In this document: positions 277 through 17,087 of the stretch, one piece after another | How positions within the stretch are numbered: the stretch's first letter is position 1 | How the letters are laid out: each line of letters opens with the position of its first letter | Virus record (IMG/VR): IMGVR_UViG_3300028800_000306 | Location: 1 to 24,566 of that record | From: a virus | Direction: 5' to 3' (one strand) | Length of the DNA: 24,566 nucleotides | Translations under genes and position numbers: made by a program | Notes under the pieces: generated by a model | The model's database searches: none | Seen by the model: the letters and a program-made list of their open reading frames with translations, nothing else | What the model was told of the DNA's origin: nothing

Positions 277-1632
277 ATGAACCCAGAGATACGTGTAAAA
301 TTAAATAAATTTAAGGCCCGCGAGTACCAGCTACCTATACTGGATGCGATTGAGAACAAAGGTTACAAACGGGTTCTCGCTATTCTACCAAGACGCGCCG
401 GGAAAGATTATGCTGCGTGGGCCTTAATTATCAGACAGGCAATTAAGCGTGTTGGGGTCTATTGGTACATTGGTCCTACGTATAGTCAGATGAGAAAGAT
501 TATCTGGGATTCTTTGGATAACAATGGCCAGTCGTTCCTGTCTATGATTCCTGAAGAGATTATTGAATCTCAAAATGATCAACAGATGAAGATTCGCTTG
601 AAGAATGGATCATTAATCCAGCTTGTGGGCTCTGACAACTATGATACCCTTGTGGGAAGTAATCCAATCGGCTGCGTGTTTACTGAATATGCTCTCCAAG
701 ATCCACGTGCTTATCAATATATACGGCCCATATTGCTTGCAAATAATGGCTGGGCCGTCTTTTTAAGTACCCCACGTGGAAAAAATCATCTATTTGAATT
801 ATATGAGATAGCCCGTAACTCTCCTGATTGGTTTGCTTATAAGCTGACTGTAGAAGATACTCAGCATATATCCCTGCATGATATTGAACGTGAGCTCAAT
901 TCCGGTGAAGTCTCGGAGGATTTAATACAACAAGAATATTATTGTTCATTTACACTCGGCGTTCAGGGATCGTTTTATAGCAAGTATCTTGATCGTATGC
1001 GCCTGAATGGCCAGATTGGAATAGTGCCTTGGGAGGCTTCGTTTAAAGTGCATACAGCGCTCGATATTGGAGTACGGGATTCAACCTCAATCATCTGGTT
1101 TCAATGTATAGGAACCACAGTGCGCATAATTGACTGTTATGAAAATAAAAAAGAGGGACTTGAACATTATGTCAACGTTATTCAAAGCAAGCCTTATACT
1201 TATGGTAAGCATATCGCTCCTCACGACATCAAGGTGCAGGAGTTCGGTTCAGGGATTACTCGGCTTCAAAAAGCAAAGCAGCTTGGTATTAACTTCACCG
1301 TTGCGGATGATCTTTCTATACCGGATGGCATTGAAGCTGTCCGCTCTGCGTTCTCGAAGATCTGGATCGATGAACAAAAATGCAAGCCCCTCTTGAAGGC
1401 GCTTGAGAATTATCGCCAAGAATATGACTCGCGTCATAAAGTATATAAGCCTAATCCACTCCATGATTGGTCTTCTCATTACGCGGATGCGATGCGCTAT
1501 CTCTGCATATCTCTTCCAAAAACACGTGATGGATTGTCACCTGAAGAACTTGATAAAAGATATAATGATGCCTATTATGGCCATCAAAGTAACTTACCCT
1601 CAGTCTTTCGTGACGACTTACCAAGGTATTAA
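277..1632 (+). CDS. terL: Phage terminase large subunit
   Basis: A 451-aa protein of normal length for the family. The large terminase is the ATP-driven motor that translocates DNA into the prohead through the portal and cuts the concatemer. The N-terminal ATPase half has a Walker A-type motif LPRRAGKD (37-44), a Walker B-like segment CVFTEY (133-138) in which Glu137 can be the catalytic acid although the usual Asp before it is Thr, and a coupling motif STPRG (164-168). The C-terminal half reads as an RNase H-like nuclease: Asp263 in ALDIGVRDST, Asp317 in PHDIKV, and Asp397/Asp404 in HDWSSHYADAMRY. Start ATG 277 follows AGAGAG. The last codons (DDLPRY stop) are repeated as DNA 410 bp downstream, after the next gene. 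Confidence 0.93.
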   Translation: MNPEIRVKLNKFKAREYQLPILDAIENKGYKRVLAILPRRAGKDYAAWALIIRQAIKRVGVYWYIGPTYSQMRKIIWDSLDNNGQSFLSMIPEEIIESQNDQQMKIRLKNGSLIQLVGSDNYDTLVGSNPIGCVFTEYALQDPRAYQYIRPILLANNGWAVFLSTPRGKNHLFELYEIARNSPDWFAYKLTVEDTQHISLHDIERELNSGEVSEDLIQQEYYCSFTLGVQGSFYSKYLDRMRLNGQIGIVPWEASFKVHTALDIGVRDSTSIIWFQCIGTTVRIIDCYENKKEGLEHYVNVIQSKPYTYGKHIAPHDIKVQEFGSGITRLQKAKQLGINFTVADDLSIPDGIEAVRSAFSKIWIDEQKCKPLLKALENYRQEYDSRHKVYKPNPLHDWSSHYADAMRYLCISLPKTRDGLSPEELDKRYNDAYYGHQSNLPSVFRDDLPRY

Positions 1633-2077
1633 TATGGAAATTGAAAACGGCTACATAGCTGAACTAGTTGATAGCAACGATTTTATGCAATTATATATGT
1701 CAAAAAAAGATCCAAGAAGCGATGCTACGTTAAATCCTGCAAATTATATATATGTGCACAAACATAATAAATCTATTTTTATTCATGAGGGGACGTTAGA
1801 AGCATTTGGATTTTTCATTAAAATAGCTCGGCCTCAAAAGAACGATATTATAAAAATCAAGTTTACAAATAATATCGAGGGTTTTTTTACTAACCTTGAT
1901 ACTATATTAAACACTATGCAAGAGGCTGCATTAGAAGATGACACTGATGACTACAAAGAGCCCATCGATATTCTATTACATGTAAAATCGGGTTGCCTTC
2001 AAGCATTACGTACATGTGAAAAAATAATAGCGCAAAGTTAGATGGAAAGACGACTTACCAAGGTATTAATATGGAAA
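1612..2077 (+). repeat. 29-bp direct repeat of the terminase 3' end, flanking the next gene
   Basis: Positions 1612-1640 and 2049-2077 are identical over 29 nt. The unit covers the terminase codons DDLPRY, the stop, and the start context of the following gene (AAGGTATTAATATGGAAA). The gene 1634-2041 lies between the copies. This is what is expected if a gene was inserted or duplicated at the terminase 3' end and carried the end of terminase with it. Confidence 0.85.
1634..2041 (+). CDS. Paralogue A of a four-member small phage protein family
   Basis: 135 aa. I chose ATG 1634, which follows AAGG and directly follows the terminase stop; the frame is open further upstream but that overlaps terminase. 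Function not recognised. It shares a conserved core with the genes at 2301, 2725 and 3529: a start SNDF segment, then YIYVHK, KSIFI, a Gly-Phe turn, RPQKNDIIKI, and NLDTI (about residues 15-95), followed by an acidic linker and a C-terminal helix with a conserved Cys-Leu-x-Ala-Leu. The core alternates short hydrophobic strands and turns, consistent with a small beta-rich domain. No membrane segment and no metal site. Base composition is more AT-rich than the terminase. Confidence 0.8.
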   Translation: MEIENGYIAELVDSNDFMQLYMSKKDPRSDATLNPANYIYVHKHNKSIFIHEGTLEAFGFFIKIARPQKNDIIKIKFTNNIEGFFTNLDTILNTMQEAALEDDTDDYKEPIDILLHVKSGCLQALRTCEKIIAQS

Positions 2078-2289
2078 ATAAAGCATTAGAACTTGAAGCT
2101 GAATACAAAAAAAGTCCAGCGTATGCATGGGATCAATTACATTTAATTGAATCGCGCTATAAAGAACATGAGCAATATCATAATGGAAAATCCTGCGATG
2201 ATGATGCGTGCCTCAGTAAATTTGTGGTCGATTTTAAAAAAGAAGATTTTTTGCAACATGTAGAAACTGTTTTAAATGAATTCATTTAA
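2071..2289 (+). CDS. Small acidic hypothetical protein (72 aa)
   Basis: 72 aa starting at ATG 2071 behind the repeated start module AAGGTATTAAT. Highly charged, predicted largely helical (LELEAEYKKS, then a DFKKEDFLQHVETVLNEF helix at the C-terminus), with two Cys near the middle (SCDDDAC). It does not belong to the paralogue family on either side and I recognise no domain. The 29-bp repeat of the terminase end lies just in front of it, so its upstream context is borrowed from terminase. Confidence 0.65.
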   Translation: MENKALELEAEYKKSPAYAWDQLHLIESRYKEHEQYHNGKSCDDDACLSKFVVDFKKEDFLQHVETVLNEFI

Positions 2290-2300
2290 GATGGTGATTA

Positions 2301-2723
2301 ATGGAATTTAAAGACGGACATACCGGTGAACCAGTTAATCCCAGTGACTTTGTAACGTTTTGTCTATTTGACGCTGTTGAACAAAATGGAAGCAGCTATG
2401 TATACGTGAACAAAAAAGAGTTATATGTTTTCATTAACAAAGATAAGTTAAATAAATGGGGATTATTTTTTGAATTTGTTAGTCCTGAAAAAGATGACAT
2501 CATAACGATCCACGAGGGAAATGAAGTAATCGCCACTTTCTTTAATGTCGATACCATGATTGATCTTTTATCAGTCGATCCACGAGAAAATGATGACAAA
2601 GAAGTGGTAATGATTAATGTATTTCCTAGAGATATGATTGATATTCTCATAATCTTGCGAGCAGAGTGCTTGAGCGCTTTGAGAGAAATCAACGAGACTA
2701 TGACGGGAGGCATAAGGCATTAA
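2301..2723 (+). CDS. Paralogue B of the four-member small protein family
   Basis: 140 aa. Shares the family core: PSDF near residue 16, YVYVNK, VFINKDKL, a WGLFFEF turn, PEKDDIITI, and FFNVDTMI; the C-terminal helix keeps the Cys-Leu-x-Ala-Leu pattern (ECLSALRE). It is the longest member because of an extra segment between core and C-terminal helix. Starts 12 nt after the preceding stop; the best ribosome site is weak (GATGGTG). Its stop (2721-2723) is inside the start module of the next gene. Function unknown. Confidence 0.8.
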   Translation: MEFKDGHTGEPVNPSDFVTFCLFDAVEQNGSSYVYVNKKELYVFINKDKLNKWGLFFEFVSPEKDDIITIHEGNEVIATFFNVDTMIDLLSVDPRENDDKEVVMINVFPRDMIDILIILRAECLSALREINETMTGGIRH

Positions 2724-2724
2724 T

Positions 2725-3132
2725 ATGATGTGTACCATTAAAACGTCACGTACATGTATACATGAGCAAATCGACAAAAATGATTTTGTAAAAATAGTTA
2801 TCGGCAAAAACATATCAAATCCTGATGATTATTTATATGTAAATAAACTCAGTAAATCAGTTTTTATCAACAATGATAGGTTAAAGAGTGGTGGTATAAA
2901 ATTTAATCCCCCTCATATCGAAAAAAACGATATGTTAACAATAGCACTTGATGGAAAAGAGCAAATTTTCTTCAATATCGATACCATAATAATTGAGCTT
3001 AAAAAATATTATGGATCCGAAGATATTACTGAAGAAAACCTTAACTATCTTATCGCTAGTTTATCGAGCGTAAAAGCAACTGCTATTCATCGATTAGATC
3101 AATATTTTGAGATGCAAAAAACAGAGCATTAA
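2725..3132 (+). CDS. Paralogue C of the four-member small protein family
   Basis: 135 aa, overlapping start module AAGGCATTAATATG (2714-2727). Family core visible: KNDFVKI, YLYVNK, KSVFINNDRL, GGIKF, IEKNDMLTI, FFNIDTIII, and an amphipathic C-terminal helix (in this copy without the conserved Cys). Its first residues MMCTIKT come from a 20-nt DNA segment (2725-2744) that occurs again at 3934-3953, at the start of a different small ORF, so the 5' end of this gene seems to have been copied or swapped. Function unknown. Confidence 0.8.
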   Translation: MMCTIKTSRTCIHEQIDKNDFVKIVIGKNISNPDDYLYVNKLSKSVFINNDRLKSGGIKFNPPHIEKNDMLTIALDGKEQIFFNIDTIIIELKKYYGSEDITEENLNYLIASLSSVKATAIHRLDQYFEMQKTEH

Positions 3133-3529
3133 AAGGTATTAATATGAATTATCCAATTGATAGAGAAGCGTGGAAAGAACTTGTATCTTATTATGCACAT
3201 AAAATTGAAGATCTTTTGCCACCAAAAGATTCAGAACAGTCACCAGATTCAATATGTTTAGTTTTCAATCTAGAAGAGGAACATGATGAAGTATATGGTG
3301 CTGGCCCGACATGTATGGCGTTTGCAAAATATAACCATGACACTCAAAAGTTTATGAGTGTTGCTTATCCAAAAGATGAAATATCATATTACGATTTCAG
3401 GGATGTGTGTAATCATAATGTTGGTTATCACTCAGGTAAAATTACCCATTGGTTAGATGATTATGATCTTACATGCCTGCTTATGGCTTTATTAGTTGAG
3501 AATCGTGCGTTAAAAAACAGAGCATTAAA
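3116..3529 (+). repeat. 18-nt direct repeat flanking the 3144 gene
   Basis: AAAAAACAGAGCATTAAA occurs at 3116-3133 and 3512-3529. In the first copy it encodes the end and stop of paralogue C; in the second it lies inside the last codons of the 3144 gene and runs into the ATG of paralogue D. Removing one copy plus the gene between would place paralogue C directly against paralogue D with a TAAATG stop-start overlap, which suggests that the 3144 gene was inserted. Confidence 0.75.
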
Positions 3530-3551
3530 TGGAAATTCCAACAGGATGTAA
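3144..3551 (+). CDS. Hypothetical protein, probable inserted cassette
   Basis: 135 aa from ATG 3144 behind the start module AAGGTATTAAT. No recognised domain; not a member of the paralogue family despite equal length. An N-terminal helix (REAWKELVSYYAHKIEDLL) is followed by beta-like segments (SICLVFNLEEE, TCMAFAKYNHD) and a C-terminal hydrophobic helix (LTCLLMALLVENRAL). It overlaps the start of the next gene by 23 nt, and its last 14 or so residues are encoded by repeat DNA plus the next gene's start, so its natural C-terminus may have been replaced when it was inserted. Confidence 0.7.
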   Translation: MNYPIDREAWKELVSYYAHKIEDLLPPKDSEQSPDSICLVFNLEEEHDEVYGAGPTCMAFAKYNHDTQKFMSVAYPKDEISYYDFRDVCNHNVGYHSGKITHWLDDYDLTCLLMALLVENRALKNRALNGNSNRM

Positions 3552-3933
3552 AGCAGACCGAATAGATCCTCGTGATTTTATTCAACTTAATCTTTCAAAA
3601 AGAGGTTCAGCGAGTCCAGTAACTGAAAAAGATCTTATATATGTGCATAAGTATGATAAAATTGTTTTCATAAGCGAAGAAAAACTACGAGAAGAATTTG
3701 GGTTATTATTTCATATTCCTCGTCCTAAAAAGAATCAAATATTGATGATTGAATTAGAAGATGGATCAACAAAAAAATACATCAATATTGAGGTTATAAT
3801 CGATAATATGAAAGATGATACCGAAGATGAAGCCCAAGATGATTTTATTGAGTTTCTTTCGATATTAAAATCATCATGCATACGCTCACTAATTACTGTT
3901 GAAAATATAATAATGGAAGGATCAGAGAATTAA
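3529..3933 (+). CDS. Paralogue D of the four-member small protein family
   Basis: 134 aa. The family core is well preserved: DPRDFIQL, LIYVHKYDKIVFI, FGLLFHI, RPKKNQILMI, NIEVIIDNM, then an acidic linker and a C-terminal helix with Ser-Ser-Cys. Its first codons (MEIP) resemble those of paralogue A (MEIE). Start ATG 3529 lies in the end of the previous gene. Paralogues A and D look closest to one another by eye (YIYVHK, RPxKN). Function unknown. Confidence 0.8.
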   Translation: MEIPTGCKADRIDPRDFIQLNLSKRGSASPVTEKDLIYVHKYDKIVFISEEKLREEFGLLFHIPRPKKNQILMIELEDGSTKKYINIEVIIDNMKDDTEDEAQDDFIEFLSILKSSCIRSLITVENIIMEGSEN

Positions 3934-4438: not shown

Positions 4439-5040
4439 GTAAAATAAGGTATTAATATGATGTGTTCTGTGTGCCAAAAGCGAGAATCTATTTATTGGAT
4501 AACTTCATTAGAACCAGCAATAGGTTTTTGTGATACATGCAAACCAACATCACGAAAATTAGCGTTACAGCGATCTCAATGTGGAGAGTCCGAGCCAGAT
4601 ATTGAGTTTGAAAATGATTATCCAAAAGATGAATGTTATTTATGCGGCAATAAAAACTTTGAAGAATTAAACCGATCATCAATTTCTAAGGCGTCACCTG
4701 TTTTAAATAATTATGGTGAAAAATTTATTGTTTTGCCGGATTCTTTTGAATTTGAGCGTTGGACCTGTAAATATGAATTTGGTTGCGGAAAAACATGGCA
4801 ATTAAGGTGGCCTATTGATGAAATTTTGATAGTCAGATTTCAGGATCCTTTATTTAAAGCTGGTTATAAAACCATAGGGGATCTTTCAAGAGCCAAGCCC
4901 GAAGAACTTTTAAAGATAAAAGGAATTGGCAAAAGAGCCATTTGGGATATAAAAAATTCACTAAGAATGATTGGTGTTAAATGGGGACATGGGGCATTGA
5001 AATGAATATCAACAGATTTATAGTACATGGTGTATAAGTA
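4403..5040 (+). repeat. 39-nt direct repeat flanking the zinc-ribbon/alpha-CTD gene
   Basis: Positions 4403-4441 and 5002-5040 match over 39 nt with one difference. The first copy is the 3' end of the 4061 gene (codons MNINRFIVHGV, stop) plus a few bases; the second copy follows the 4457 gene, where its ATG overlaps that gene's TGA and it leaves an orphan 11-codon remnant. The 4457 gene thus sits exactly between two copies of its neighbour's end, as an insertion with terminal duplication would leave it. Confidence 0.88.
4457..5005 (+). CDS. Zinc-ribbon protein with C-terminal RNA polymerase alpha-CTD-like domain
   Basis: 182 aa, start ATG 4457 (a second ATG follows at 4460) behind AAGGTATTAAT. 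Two likely zinc sites: C3-x2-C6 with C25-x2-C28, and C60-x2-C63 with C104-x5-C110. Residues about 121-178 align without gaps to the C-terminal domain of bacterial RNAP alpha, which binds UP-element DNA and activators: VRFQDPLFKAGYKTIGDL matches VRSANCLKAEAIHYIGDL of E. coli. Arg127 falls on E. coli Arg265 and the GIGKRA turn on Gly296-Ser299; Asn268 is Asp here, Lys298 is Arg, Ser299 is Ala. There are no alpha N-terminal dimerisation or assembly domains. A role in DNA binding or redirecting transcription is inferred. A generic helix-hairpin-helix DNA-binding function is the alternative. Confidence 0.72.
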   Translation: MMCSVCQKRESIYWITSLEPAIGFCDTCKPTSRKLALQRSQCGESEPDIEFENDYPKDECYLCGNKNFEELNRSSISKASPVLNNYGEKFIVLPDSFEFERWTCKYEFGCGKTWQLRWPIDEILIVRFQDPLFKAGYKTIGDLSRAKPEELLKIKGIGKRAIWDIKNSLRMIGVKWGHGALK

Positions 5041-11225: not shown

Positions 11226-12530
11226 ATGAAAAGATATTTTCCATCTAGTCAGTTTTTTTCAATAAGTTTCTTCACTTTATTAAGTAAGATATTTGGATTC
11301 ATGAGAGAATGGTTTCGAGCACTATTCTTTGGAGTTGGCGAGAGATCTGATATATTTTTGATGGCGTACAGAATGCCATTCTTTTTTTATAAAATGTGTT
11401 CTGAGGGACCGCTCAGCGCAGCACTTGTTCCTTTTGTGGTGGATATGAATCGCCAAGAAGAGAGAACATACATGATGCAAGTTATTACTTGTTCTATGAT
11501 TATAGTGCAAACATTTTTTTTGATAGTATCGGTTGTTGTCATTATATTTTCATCAAAATTATCATACTTTTTGGTTCCTGGCTGGAAAAATATCAATTCT
11601 GTCTTAGAAGTATCCTCGCTGGTTCCTGTTCTTATGTCTTCGATGATTTTTATGAGTGCAGCTTGTTATTTATCTTCTGTACTCCAAGGCCTTTCTGTTT
11701 TTTCTGCCATACTTATGCAGCCAATTGTATTTAATATTCTCACAATAATTGAATATGGAGTGTGTTGGTATTTTAATGCTTCACTTATGACGCTTGCGCT
11801 CTGCTATTTACTAAATTCGATCATTATTTTTGGAATAACATGGTTATTGTTTCGAAAATATTATTCATTCGAATGGAACTTTACCAGATCTACCATCAAA
11901 AGATCATTAGAGCTCATTAAAAACATAGCAAGCAGCTGCGTAACCATTGGGGTTAATGAAATTAATGCCATCATAGATTTACAATACGCCTCTTTTTTTG
12001 GATCTGGAGTTGTATCGCTTATGAGTTACAGCGGTCTTTTATTGAGACTACCTTTAAGTATATTTGGTGCTGGTATTTCTATGGTGTTATTGCCTGAATT
12101 TTCTCTTATAAAGCACGATAAAAAATTACTTGGTCATTATATCTATAAATCATCTAAGATTCTTTTGGCATCGATTTTACCCGTAATTTTAGTTATGTAC
12201 GCACTTGCTCCGTTTCTATTTTCTTTAGTATTCAGATTTTCAGAATCACACTGTATTCTTGCAGCTCAATTTTTACGATTTTCTTTGATGGGATTGTTCT
12301 TTTTTTGTTTAAACAGAATGCTGCTCAATGTTTTTTATGCATTAGGAATATTCGATATTCCTTTTTATATATCCTGTATCGCGATAATCATTAACATCAT
12401 ATTAAATAATATATTGATATCATATTTTGGATCATCTGGTATTATATTAGCGACTTCAATTTCAGCAATCATTCAAAGTTGTTTGTTGATCGTATCATTG
12501 AGGCGACATAAAATAATTATAAAAAAATGA
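11226..12530 (+). CDS. MurJ/MviN-like lipid II flippase family membrane protein
   Basis: 434 aa, about 75 residues shorter than E. coli MurJ (511 aa), with about 12 hydrophobic segments. MurJ moves lipid II across the inner membrane for peptidoglycan synthesis. The N-terminal signature is clear: SKIFGFMREWFRALFFGVG, SDIFLMAYRMP, SEGPLSAALVPF. Against E. coli MurJ by eye, Arg24, Asp39 and Glu57 are kept (Arg27, Asp42, Glu60) and Arg18 is Lys21, but cavity Arg52 falls on Tyr55 (with Lys56 beside it) and Arg270 on Leu. So transport of lipid II is uncertain. ATG 11226 after AGGAG. T-rich and AT-rich compared with the virion genes, with its own promoter and terminator, so it looks like a transferred accessory (moron) gene. 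Another MOP-superfamily transport role is possible. Confidence 0.82.
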   Translation: MKRYFPSSQFFSISFFTLLSKIFGFMREWFRALFFGVGERSDIFLMAYRMPFFFYKMCSEGPLSAALVPFVVDMNRQEERTYMMQVITCSMIIVQTFFLIVSVVVIIFSSKLSYFLVPGWKNINSVLEVSSLVPVLMSSMIFMSAACYLSSVLQGLSVFSAILMQPIVFNILTIIEYGVCWYFNASLMTLALCYLLNSIIIFGITWLLFRKYYSFEWNFTRSTIKRSLELIKNIASSCVTIGVNEINAIIDLQYASFFGSGVVSLMSYSGLLLRLPLSIFGAGISMVLLPEFSLIKHDKKLLGHYIYKSSKILLASILPVILVMYALAPFLFSLVFRFSESHCILAAQFLRFSLMGLFFFCLNRMLLNVFYALGIFDIPFYISCIAIIINIILNNILISYFGSSGIILATSISAIIQSCLLIVSLRRHKIIIKK

Positions 12531-14587: not shown

Positions 14588-17087
14588 ATGGCTATAACAA
14601 CTACAAGCACGCTTCCGGCACCCGTTAACTGAAGTTGAGCGGGTATAAAACTATGAGTGATTACATGGAAAGTCTAAACATAAATACAGATCTTTGTTAT
14701 ACTGAATTAAGTACAACAAAGGAGTATTTATGCATGATAACCAGAGCCAAACGCATTGGGCGTATATAGCTGGAATAATGGACGCGGATGGATGTTTTAT
14801 GATATTTAAACACAAGCGCAAAACTAAAAATAAGCAAACAGATCGAGCTTTAGTTTTTCCAAAGAACGTAAAGCAGTGGGCTATTTCCTATTTGCCTGGT
14901 GTTAAAATAGCAATGATTGAACCTGAAGCTATAGATCTCATTCAGAAAGAAATGGGATTCGGCAATATGCACATCGATGGCGCTCGTAAGAGTAGACCCA
15001 AATCGAAGCCAATTTATCATTGGTACATGCGAGACAAACTGCGAGTGGCAGAATTCATAGAAAATGTGATGCCTTATCTGAGAGTTAAAAAAGATAGAGC
15101 GCGCCATCTTTTAGAATTCTGTAAACATTTGAAGAATGTTCCGCATGTGGGATATAAGGGTTTATCTCAAGAAGAGCTAGATTACCGAGAAGACATGTAT
15201 ATAAAAATGCGTGAGTTCAATGGTAATAAAGTAGGCGCAACGACTAAGCCTCATGGGCACGAGAGTGCATGCGATAGTCTAAACTCATAGGAAACTATGA
15301 GAGAGTGGATCGAAGAATCTGCTCCGCCAGAAATGGTCAGTAGGATGTGGGATCGCATCCGAAAGTAATAGCGAGTCAACAAAGTTTTAGTTATAAACTT
15401 TTGTCGGTGCCAGTGCCTAATATGATCCATAAAATCCCTGCGATGAAGAAGAATATGCCCCGTAATGGTGGTACAACTCTTCGTATGCGCAGGTATAATC
15501 CATTAGCAACAGCGATGGTTCCACTTGGTAACTCTGGTGTGACTCCACCGGCCCAAAATTTGACTGCTGTGGATATTGATGCAAAGATATCGTTTTACGG
15601 TACTTATGTGGTTTTGAACGAGCAAGTAACATTGCAAAACCAAGACCCTGTATTAAACGAATCAGCAGCACGTTTGGGTGTTTCGCTACGTCAAACCGAA
15701 GACCAATTAACACGCGATATGCTTGCTTCAACAGCGAGTTTTATCAACTCTGTTGGCGGATTTGACGGGGACAATCCAACGGAAATCACACGTTCTGATG
15801 TTGATACGGTTGTGCGTGCGTTATTGAATAATAATGCTTACACAATCATGGATAACATTGAAGGTGAAGATAAGTTCGGAACCGCGCCTAGAATGAATGG
15901 GCGCTATAAACTTTCTCTGATTGACTTGGAAGCCCAAGCTTAAGAGCGGGCGACAGGGCGGAAGGCGTAAGCCACCGTGAACGACTAAGTGAGAAGGCAC
16001 CGAAAGGTGATGCGATAGTCTGACCTCCGACCGATAAGGCGGAGAGGCGAATCCGAAGAGGTTTGCCCGCCTAGAAATAGGTCACAAAAGTAACAGAAAT
16101 GGTTCGTGATGCATATTTTGCTTTATGCTCCACAAATTTGACCGGAAGTCTTGATAACGTTGCTGGATTCATCCAAAAGAACCAATATCCAGCTCCAATG
16201 AATGCTTTGCGTTCAGAATGGGGTGCTATTGGAAACTTAAGGTTCTTGATTTCATCCATTGGTAGCATTACTCCACTTTCGTCAGCTAACGGCAACGATG
16301 TGTATAACATCTTCTGCGTTGGTATGGAAGCGTATGCTTGCATAGAGCAAGACGGCTACAGTGCCTCGTTCATAGAAATGTATGTGAACGTTAAATCTTC
16401 TCTGATAGACTTGGAACCCGTAGTGGCAATAAGCTAACCGGAAACAAGGGGCAAGATTATGGTTAAAATTAAAGATTGCATGAAGGAATTGGGATATAGG
16501 CCTGCATTTTGTAAATGTTCTGCGTGTAGAATAAATTCTCGCGAATTTGTTAAAAATATTTGCAATAATCCAATATCAATTCCACTTAAATATCTTAATG
16601 GTGAAAATAATCAGCCTGAACGACTAAGTGAGAAGACCTCGAAAGAGGATGCGATAGTCTGAACTCCAAAGGAAACTTGGAGAGGCGAATTCGAAGAAGT
16701 TTGCCCGCCCTACGTACGTACTACGTAAGGTCATAAAAGTAACAGAATTGATATAGACCACCTATATATGATGGCCCATTGGCGCTTAACGCATCAGTCG
16801 GCTATAAATTCGCTGAGGTTAAAATTAGTGACCTCGTTAAATCTTTTCTGATTGACTTGGAAACCCTTGTAATGGGTGACAGGGCGCAAGCGCAAGCAGC
16901 GTGAACGACTAAGTGAAAAGACGTCGAAAGACGATGCGATAGTCTGAACTCTATGGAGACATAGAGAGGGAGATTCGAAGAAGTTTCCCCGCCCTACGTA
17001 CGTACTACGTAAGGTCATCAAAGTAACAGAATGCCTAGGATTACGAACGACTTGTGGGTATTGAATTTACGCGCAACATTGGCTTAA
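14588..17087 (+). CDS. Major capsid protein, N4-gp56 family, split by four group I introns
   Basis: Joined exons 14588-14625, 15376-15889, 16102-16373, 16751-16820 and 17034-17087 give 948 nt, a 315-aa protein in one frame. Coat subunits of this HK97-fold family form the icosahedral shell. Family marks: MAITTTSTLP N-terminus, PNMIHKIPAMKKNMPR, TLRMRRYNPL, TAVDIDAKISFYGTYVVLNE, DPVLNESAARLG, EWGAIGNLRFLISS, and an ending RITNDLWVLNLRATLA. Each junction restores a continuous motif: PAPV-QQSF, KFGTAP-VRDAYFAL, YSASFI-YRPPIYDG, FAEV-PRITNDLW. ATG 14588 follows GGGAG. Without splicing the frame stops 14 codons in, so the coat, and hence the particle, depends on RNA splicing. The exon ORFs seen alone are not separate genes. 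Confidence 0.9.
14675..14703 (+). promoter_or_regulatory. Possible promoter inside intron 1 for the endonuclease gene
   Basis: TAAACA (14675-14680), 17-nt spacer, TATACT (14698-14703), 26 nt before the endonuclease ATG. It would allow the endonuclease to be made independently of coat transcription, as is common for intron-borne endonuclease genes. Confidence 0.4.
14730..15290 (+). CDS. LAGLIDADG homing endonuclease in intron 1
   Basis: 186 aa; ATG 14730 after AAAGGAG. One LAGLIDADG motif at residues 12-22 (YIAGIMDADGC), where the acidic residues bind the catalytic metal; a single motif implies a homodimer. The rest (GFGNMHIDGARKS, WYMRDKLRVAEFIENVMPYL, RVKKDRARHLLEF) fits the alpha-beta pattern of the family. 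Such enzymes cut intron-less copies of the gene so that the intron is copied in. The last 16 or so codons overlap the P7/P8 part of the ribozyme core, so the tail (GATTKPHGHESACDSLNS) is dictated by RNA structure. It may also help fold the intron. Confidence 0.85.
   Translation: MHDNQSQTHWAYIAGIMDADGCFMIFKHKRKTKNKQTDRALVFPKNVKQWAISYLPGVKIAMIEPEAIDLIQKEMGFGNMHIDGARKSRPKSKPIYHWYMRDKLRVAEFIENVMPYLRVKKDRARHLLEFCKHLKNVPHVGYKGLSQEELDYREDMYIKMREFNGNKVGATTKPHGHESACDSLNS
15890..16101 (+). ncRNA. Group I intron 2 (212 nt, no ORF)
   Basis: P1 pairs exon GCGCCT (15884-15889) with GGGCGC (15899-15904), U-G at the junction; the last base is G 16101. P7 halves are in ACGACTAAGT (15981-15990) and TGCGATAGTC (16011-16020); the hairpin between them is CACC-GAAA-GGTG. 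A following hairpin CTCCG/CGGAG and CCTA-GAAA-TAGG precede the 3' end motif AAAAGTAACAGAA. Removal joins codons 184 and 185. Confidence 0.88.
16374..16750 (+). ncRNA. Group I intron 3 (377 nt, carries a 67-aa ORF)
   Basis: P1 pairs exon CGTTCAT (16367-16373) with GTGAACG (16384-16390), U-G at the junction; the last base is G 16750. P7 halves: CGACTAAGTG (16621-16630) and GCGATAGTCT (16651-16660), with CCTC-GAAA-GAGG between and CTCCAA/TTGGAG after. A 31-nt 3' segment (16704-16734) is identical to intron 4. Removal restores the split Ile codon AT-A. Confidence 0.88.
16459..16662 (+). CDS. Small ORF inside intron 3 (67 aa)
   Basis: ATG 16459; a weak ribosome site (AAGGGGCAAG) precedes it. It encodes MVKIKDCMKELGYRP, then a Cys cluster (FCKCSACRIN) and a tail that, as in the intron 1 gene, is read through the P7/P8 core (ERLSEKTSKEDAIV). 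It occupies the same place in the ribozyme as the intron 1 endonuclease but shows no LAGLIDADG motif. It may be a shrunken endonuclease (a zinc-motif type) or a DNA-binding remnant, or not expressed. Confidence 0.5.
   Translation: MVKIKDCMKELGYRPAFCKCSACRINSREFVKNICNNPISIPLKYLNGENNQPERLSEKTSKEDAIV
16821..17033 (+). ncRNA. Group I intron 4 (213 nt, no ORF)
   Basis: P1 pairs exon GAGGTT (16815-16820) with GACCTC (16830-16835), U-G at the junction; the last base is G 17033. P7 halves are in GAACGACTAAG (16903-16913) and GCGATAGTCT (16936-16945), with CGTC-GAAA-GACG between and CTCTATG-GAGA-CATAGAG after. 3' hairpin CCTACGTA/TACGTAAGG shared with intron 3. It leaves an exon 4 of only 70 nt. Confidence 0.88.

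Follow-up and report, generated by a model that had tools for sequence, protein, structure and literature searches.

Introduction

How a phage might obtain a coat protein from a gene that, read plainly, gives fragments only is the question raised by the major capsid gene at positions 14588-17087 of the DNA analyzed here. The whole analyzed stretch, hereafter the window, corresponds to an entire IMG/VR virus record of 24,566 bp; it is linear, and therefore probably a partial phage genome. The gene is split by four group I introns of 750, 212, 377, and 213 nt, and translation from the upstream exon meets a stop inside the intron. The explanation that we favor, and regard as probable in the absence of RNA or protein data, is that self-splicing would remove the four introns from the capsid mRNA and restore a 315-aa N4-gp56-type coat protein. 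The introns would belong to one mobile family, resident chiefly in tailed-phage major capsid genes and circulating between phages as a common pool; some members would home to fixed sites, and occasionally a copy would jump to a new one.

Exon Map and Predicted Product of the Capsid Gene

The five exons lie on the plus strand. Exon 1 (14588-14625, 38 nt) encodes MAITTTSTLPAP and a split V codon, and is followed by exon 2 (15376-15889, 514 nt), exon 3 (16102-16373, 272 nt), exon 4 (16751-16820, 70 nt), and exon 5 (17034-17087, 54 nt), which includes the stop. Joined, they make 948 nt, or 315 aa plus the stop, and all joins are in frame. When the uninterrupted relative L001 serves as template, spliced alignment of protein to DNA recovers the same eight boundaries. 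The aligner was written for this analysis; it demands a U before the intron and a G at the intron end, and makes no use of pairing. More than 60 uninterrupted homologues in IMG/VR align to residues 1-315 at 83-94% identity. The product matches the N4-gp56 capsid family TIGR04387 over residues 4-309 (1.4e-40; 139.6 bits against a cut-off of 60), and also Pfam PF25209 and PHROG 1357, a major head protein. The initial annotation had claimed five exons and four introns with exact joins, and a 315-aa coat protein of the N4-gp56 type. Both claims held, the first by the spliced alignment and the uninterrupted homologues, the second by the TIGR04387 match above its cut-off. The exon map is thus shown computationally; that splicing occurs is inferred.

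The coding DNA is 79% identical to that of the nearest intronless relative, whereas the protein is kept at up to 94% identity in intronless relatives, which indicates purifying selection on the joined exons.

Ribozyme Parts of the Four Introns

All four introns are on the plus strand, and each has a P1 with a U.G pair at the 5′ splice site, both P7 halves, and a terminal G. The boundaries that place the terminal G agree with protein homology, but the G was also demanded by the aligner. Intron 1 (14626-15375, 750 nt) follows CDS nt 38, a site also occupied in L039, L067, L068, and L266. Its guide, GCGGGU (14639-14644), pairs with the exon sequence ACCCGU (14620-14625), with U14625 opposite G14639, and in its core (15242-15279) the P7 halves are GACUA (5′, 15242-15246) and UAGUC (3′, 15275-15279). 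Intron 2 (15890-16101, 212 nt) follows CDS nt 552 and has no ORF; its guide GGGCGC (15899-15904) pairs with GCGCCU (15884-15889), and the P7 halves (15983-15987 and 16016-16020) enclose the 3′ strand of P3 and P8. Intron 3 (16374-16750, 377 nt) follows CDS nt 824; its guide GUGAACG (16384-16390) pairs with CGUUCAU (16367-16373), and its P7 halves are at 16622-16626 and 16655-16659. Intron 4 (16821-17033, 213 nt), again without an ORF, follows CDS nt 894; here GACCUC (16830-16835) pairs with GAGGUU (16815-16820), and the P7 halves are at 16907-16911 and 16940-16944.

The initial annotation had proposed a search with Infernal and the Rfam group I model. At the gathering threshold, Rfam gave no intron match in the window, nor in ten relatives with several introns. 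In the window (a 2.8-kb search), RF00028 scored only 27.0, 18.2, and 14.6 bits against a cut-off of 50, the best match (27 bits, E 3.5e-4) being intron 4. Because of this lack of matches, a covariance model of the family, R1, was built on the intron core. R1 detects all four introns (E 7e-34 to 1e-6) and no further ones in the window: intron 1 at 15214-15302 (1.3e-6), intron 2 (1e-28), intron 3 at 16393-16525 and 16533-16683, and intron 4 (7.2e-34), introns 2 and 4 having been in the training set. The RF00028 cut-off is the score limit of one model, and not a defining feature of the group I class. The window introns are in all likelihood real although missed at this curated cut-off; self-splicing with guanosine is inferred, without RNA data.

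Covariation and Guide Fit

The group I fold (P1 and P3-P9) was counted on an alignment of 45 short introns from 25 sites. In this alignment 96.0% of cells are paired, against 75.8% in shuffled versions; 355 double changes are observed, against 97 when shuffled and 37-100 when the fold is slid; and the covariation score is 0.506 against 0.147, with no slid version close. The P3/P7 pseudoknot, P4-P6, and P8 are each 83-100% paired, with compensatory changes. The counted fold was derived from intron 2 of the window, which is itself in the alignment, and is for this reason favored against the slid controls. Its origin does not explain the number and spread of the compensatory changes.

In P1, 44 of the 45 aligned introns retain the U.G, while the remaining five pairs vary in step with the exon; the guide of each intron therefore fits its own site. 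When 156 introns were placed without the use of pairing, P1 comprised four or more Watson-Crick pairs in addition to the U.G in 78%, compared to 12% with exons swapped. P1 pairing thus exceeds chance. Both the fold and the match of guide to site are shown computationally, and the covariation and the retuned guides of the relatives uphold the assignment to group I that had rested on the U-G of P1, P7, and the terminal G.

These results bear on a rival reading, that the gene is a decaying pseudogene, the insertions debris, and the coat protein supplied by another copy. In its favor, plain reading yields fragments only and the window is a partial genome. Against it, the exons are in frame without a stop and the protein is conserved far beyond DNA identity, the guides fit their sites at a rate above chance, and the same organization is found in dozens of relatives. 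We regard this reading as all but excluded. A second capsid copy remains conceivable, the window being a 24.6-kb linear fragment. The earlier claim that particle production depends on four splicing events follows from the sequence if no second intact copy exists outside the fragment, and splicing itself is predicted, not demonstrated.

Spread Among Relatives

The window is not unique, and several capsid introns per gene are common within this phage family. We mapped 163 introns, 141 of them with a strong P1, in 152 unique capsid genes of IMG/VR relatives. They occupy about 40 sites overall (up to 43 mapped, roughly 38 solid); some of these, 266-272 and 314, may be sites 264 and 312 mapped with a shift. 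Two of the 152 genes have five introns and ten have four. Among 65 unique full-length close relatives, 40 (62%) have at least one capsid intron, 21 at least two, and 25 none; those with introns have one to four each, with up to five in other genes. These 65 genes were picked by similarity to exon 3 alone, so that introns elsewhere do not bias the sample. The relatives are not independent samples. Introns in L039, L043, L067-L069, and L073 were hidden when genes served as their own template; a cleaned panel and bonuses for pairing corrected most of these cases, L073 remaining hidden.

The variation among relatives also bears on a second rival, that the introns are kept as regulators, splicing acting as a switch that delays capsid synthesis or couples it to the state of the cell. 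Such a switch has been proposed for introns in phage DNA-metabolism genes, and has been discussed for the introns of Bastillevirinae and T4 (PMC11878797). In its favor, the capsid is a late and very abundant product, and translation from an upstream exon in the window ends at a stop within the intron. However, 25 of the 65 close relatives lack a capsid intron, and how many introns there are, and where, differs freely, whereas conservation would be expected of a switch that the phage needs. We consider this rival very improbable. Under the preferred reading, splicing would simply keep introns in the capsid gene harmless.

Preference for Capsid Genes

A DNA pattern restricted to the ribozyme core, and blind to the gene, finds 128 loci, of which 104 are in two capsid families: 55 in that of the window and 49 in the P22-type coat gene (PF11651). 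Intron boundaries in the P22-type gene are less sure, with a strong P1 in 30 of 59. At least nine of the other 24 loci are in further major head genes. Seven are assigned by PHROG (phrog_1328 for L140, L147, and L188; phrog_9953 for L157, L173, and L177; phrog_267 for L200), and two are near copies of such loci, judged from the reading frames on either side (L175 of L173, and L206 of L147). Non-capsid hosts are rare, and comprise portal (L094, L112, and the copy L118), ribonucleotide reductase (L133, L189), and terminase genes (L144 and the copy L210); the loci left over have no gene assignment.

R1 gives 110 matches in 93 capsid-family loci. Of these, 103 are within the mapped gene, and the remainder are at genes that are cut short or only partly mapped at that point; the remaining 790 kb of flank of the 93 loci contain none. 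In 24 records of 33-42 kb searched with R1, only two introns are outside the capsid gene, inside and outside being assigned by hand from coordinates. One is in a portal gene (L391), and the other, in L271, is a truncated copy that shortly precedes the capsid gene. The latter, at L271 2675-2939, is intergenic and follows ACCCT; its GGGGTC guide resembles that of introns at capsid site 312. It is conceivably a relic of an off-target insertion.

A third rival accepts the introns as real and attributes the capsid bias to sampling, the search patterns having been built from capsid introns. Indeed, both core patterns and R1 derive from capsid introns, related introns do exist in portal, terminase, and ribonucleotide reductase genes, and any other intron families that these genomes hold would escape R1. 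Yet the pattern comprises the ribozyme core only and found introns in unrelated capsid families, and R1 searches of whole records yield almost none outside capsid genes. We find a mere sampling effect unlikely, and take the capsid bias as computationally shown.

Open Reading Frames Inside the Introns

Intron 1 contains an ORF of 186 aa (14730-15290, plus strand) with a YIAGIMDADGCF motif, the 3′ end of which overlaps the ribozyme core. It matches phrog_5046 (8.5e-22), which also matches an antisense ORF with a LAGLIDADG motif, and falls under the cut-off of Pfam LAGLIDADG_1 (0.0015; 19.8 bits against 23.1). LAGLIDADG-type ORFs are present in many long introns of the family, antisense at many sites and sense at codons 12-13, the window's intron 1 included. 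From the motif, the PHROG match, and the relatives, the ORF probably encodes a LAGLIDADG-type homing endonuclease; cleavage of the intronless site is inferred.

Intron 3 has an ORF of 67 aa (16459-16662, plus strand) of no known family, the C-terminus (NQPERLSEKTSKEDAIV) and stop of which are read from the ribozyme core. Small and varied sense ORFs are found likewise in other mid-size capsid introns (L135, L258, L259, L260, and others), and their last codons are ribozyme core (..QPERLSEKTSKEDAIV or ..QPERSKRED..). Three of the small intron ORFs match DUF551, and some have zinc-ribbon-like cysteine pairs. They may be no more than passengers.

Inferred Movement of the Introns

On a tree of the intron core (about 190 columns, with many weak branches), introns group by site, with 25 changes against 30.8 when shuffled (reached in 0 of 300 shuffles); the minimum is 14, and grouping is far from complete. 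Introns of one gene copy do not group (18 changes against 18.3). L096 has an intron at nt 552 that is absent from L017, a 96.5% identical relative. The grouping by site, the lack of grouping by gene copy, and the L096/L017 difference are consistent with phages drawing on a common pool, its introns homing at fixed sites and now and then reaching new ones. The site-by-site turnover is shown computationally; endonuclease-driven homing and the mode of jumping are inferred from sequence alone. In the proposed scheme, some members would home at the DNA level to their own site by means of the intron-encoded LAGLIDADG endonuclease. Occasionally a copy, its internal guide altered to fit, would settle at a new capsid site, either by reverse splicing or by off-target cutting and repair.

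Two candidate mechanisms were rejected. Local duplication within the gene is not supported, introns of the same gene being no closer than chance. A phage-encoded reverse transcriptase as the engine of the jumps was also set aside, no such gene having been found in 24 long relatives; if reverse splicing drives the jumps, the enzyme must therefore come from elsewhere.

A bolder reading, which we offer only as a possibility, is that this lineage of introns has become a specialist of major capsid genes in general, even where the capsid families share no sequence similarity, the reason being that no late transcript is more abundant than the capsid mRNA. After excision, introns would reverse-splice into this mRNA at short GC-rich sites ending in U and be copied back into phage DNA, some of them with small cargo genes whose last codons are ribozyme core.

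Possible Hosts and Other Genes of the Window

Close relatives of the capsid protein (at least 38% identity) occur in 8 of 234 Chlamydiota genomes, compared to 1 of 399 Pseudomonadota genomes (Fisher p 0.002). The Chlamydiota contigs are G001, G002, G004, G040, G126, G146, G167, and G219 (loci L377-L384), and several of them are phage-sized, at 35-41 kb. They hint at tailed phages of environmental Chlamydiae, a tentative suggestion that depends on binning evidence only.

Elsewhere in the window, 11226-12530 encodes a MurJ-like lipid II flippase (Pfam MurJ, 1.8e-54; NCBIfam murJ under its equivalog cut-off), odd for a phage. The protein encoded at 4457-5005 has a domain like the C-terminal domain of the alpha subunit of bacterial RNA polymerase (PF03118, 2.4e-7). 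A cluster at 1619-3933 encodes four small related proteins without a known family, with 28-38% identity to the first. A kinship of intron cargo ORFs with these tandem genes was considered, and is not supported for the one cargo ORF compared.

Relation to Known Phage Introns

The closest published case is the mycobacteriophage LittleE, in which splicing of a capsid intron was established by RT-PCR and N-terminal sequencing (Pope et al., 2013; PMC3706429). As in the window, the intron is in the major capsid gene, with a U at the exon end and a G at the intron end, and it has an antisense LAGLIDADG-type ORF, as do members of the present family. LittleE, however, represents one intron in one phage with an HK97-type capsid, whereas here there are up to five introns per gene, dozens of sites, and several capsid families. 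A capsid intron in Tuc2009 is cited by the same paper. The tail tube gene orf142 of Twort, like the window's capsid gene, is a phage structural gene with more than one group I intron, namely three, with exon skipping (Landthaler and Shub, 1999, cited in PMC11878797); it is not a capsid gene, and here four to five introns recur across a phage family. Bastillevirinae genes may hold two or three group I introns each (PMC11878797); these are DNA polymerase, terminase, and nucleotide genes. In Jug phages, short group I introns (about 206 nt) are numerous, at 18.5 per genome, and part of them are confirmed by metatranscriptomes (PMC12363816). Those are spread over many genes (terL, nrdD, DNA polymerase) of 360-402 kb genomes, whereas the introns of the window's family are concentrated in the capsid gene, on contigs no longer than about 42 kb.

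The open-access literature searched, subscription papers being outside the search, yielded no report of a capsid gene with more than one intron. Within that literature, each published capsid intron is the only one in its gene, and no phage gene has more than three. The initial annotation's view that four introns in one phage structural gene are unusual thus holds against the literature consulted; within this phage family, capsid genes with several introns are common.

Significance

In a recent survey it was asked why colonization by phage introns is restricted to nucleotide and DNA metabolism genes (PMC11878797). The capsid intron family is a large counter-example, hidden by the Rfam cut-off. 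Direct evidence for moves of group I introns to new sites has been lacking (PMC3984707); dozens of sites in one short gene, close relatives with and without an intron, and guides tuned to their sites provide a natural series for testing such moves. In viral metagenomes, a phage family common in the environment is at risk of having its capsid genes called broken or missing. The intron family is a genetic parasite, invisible to standard annotation.
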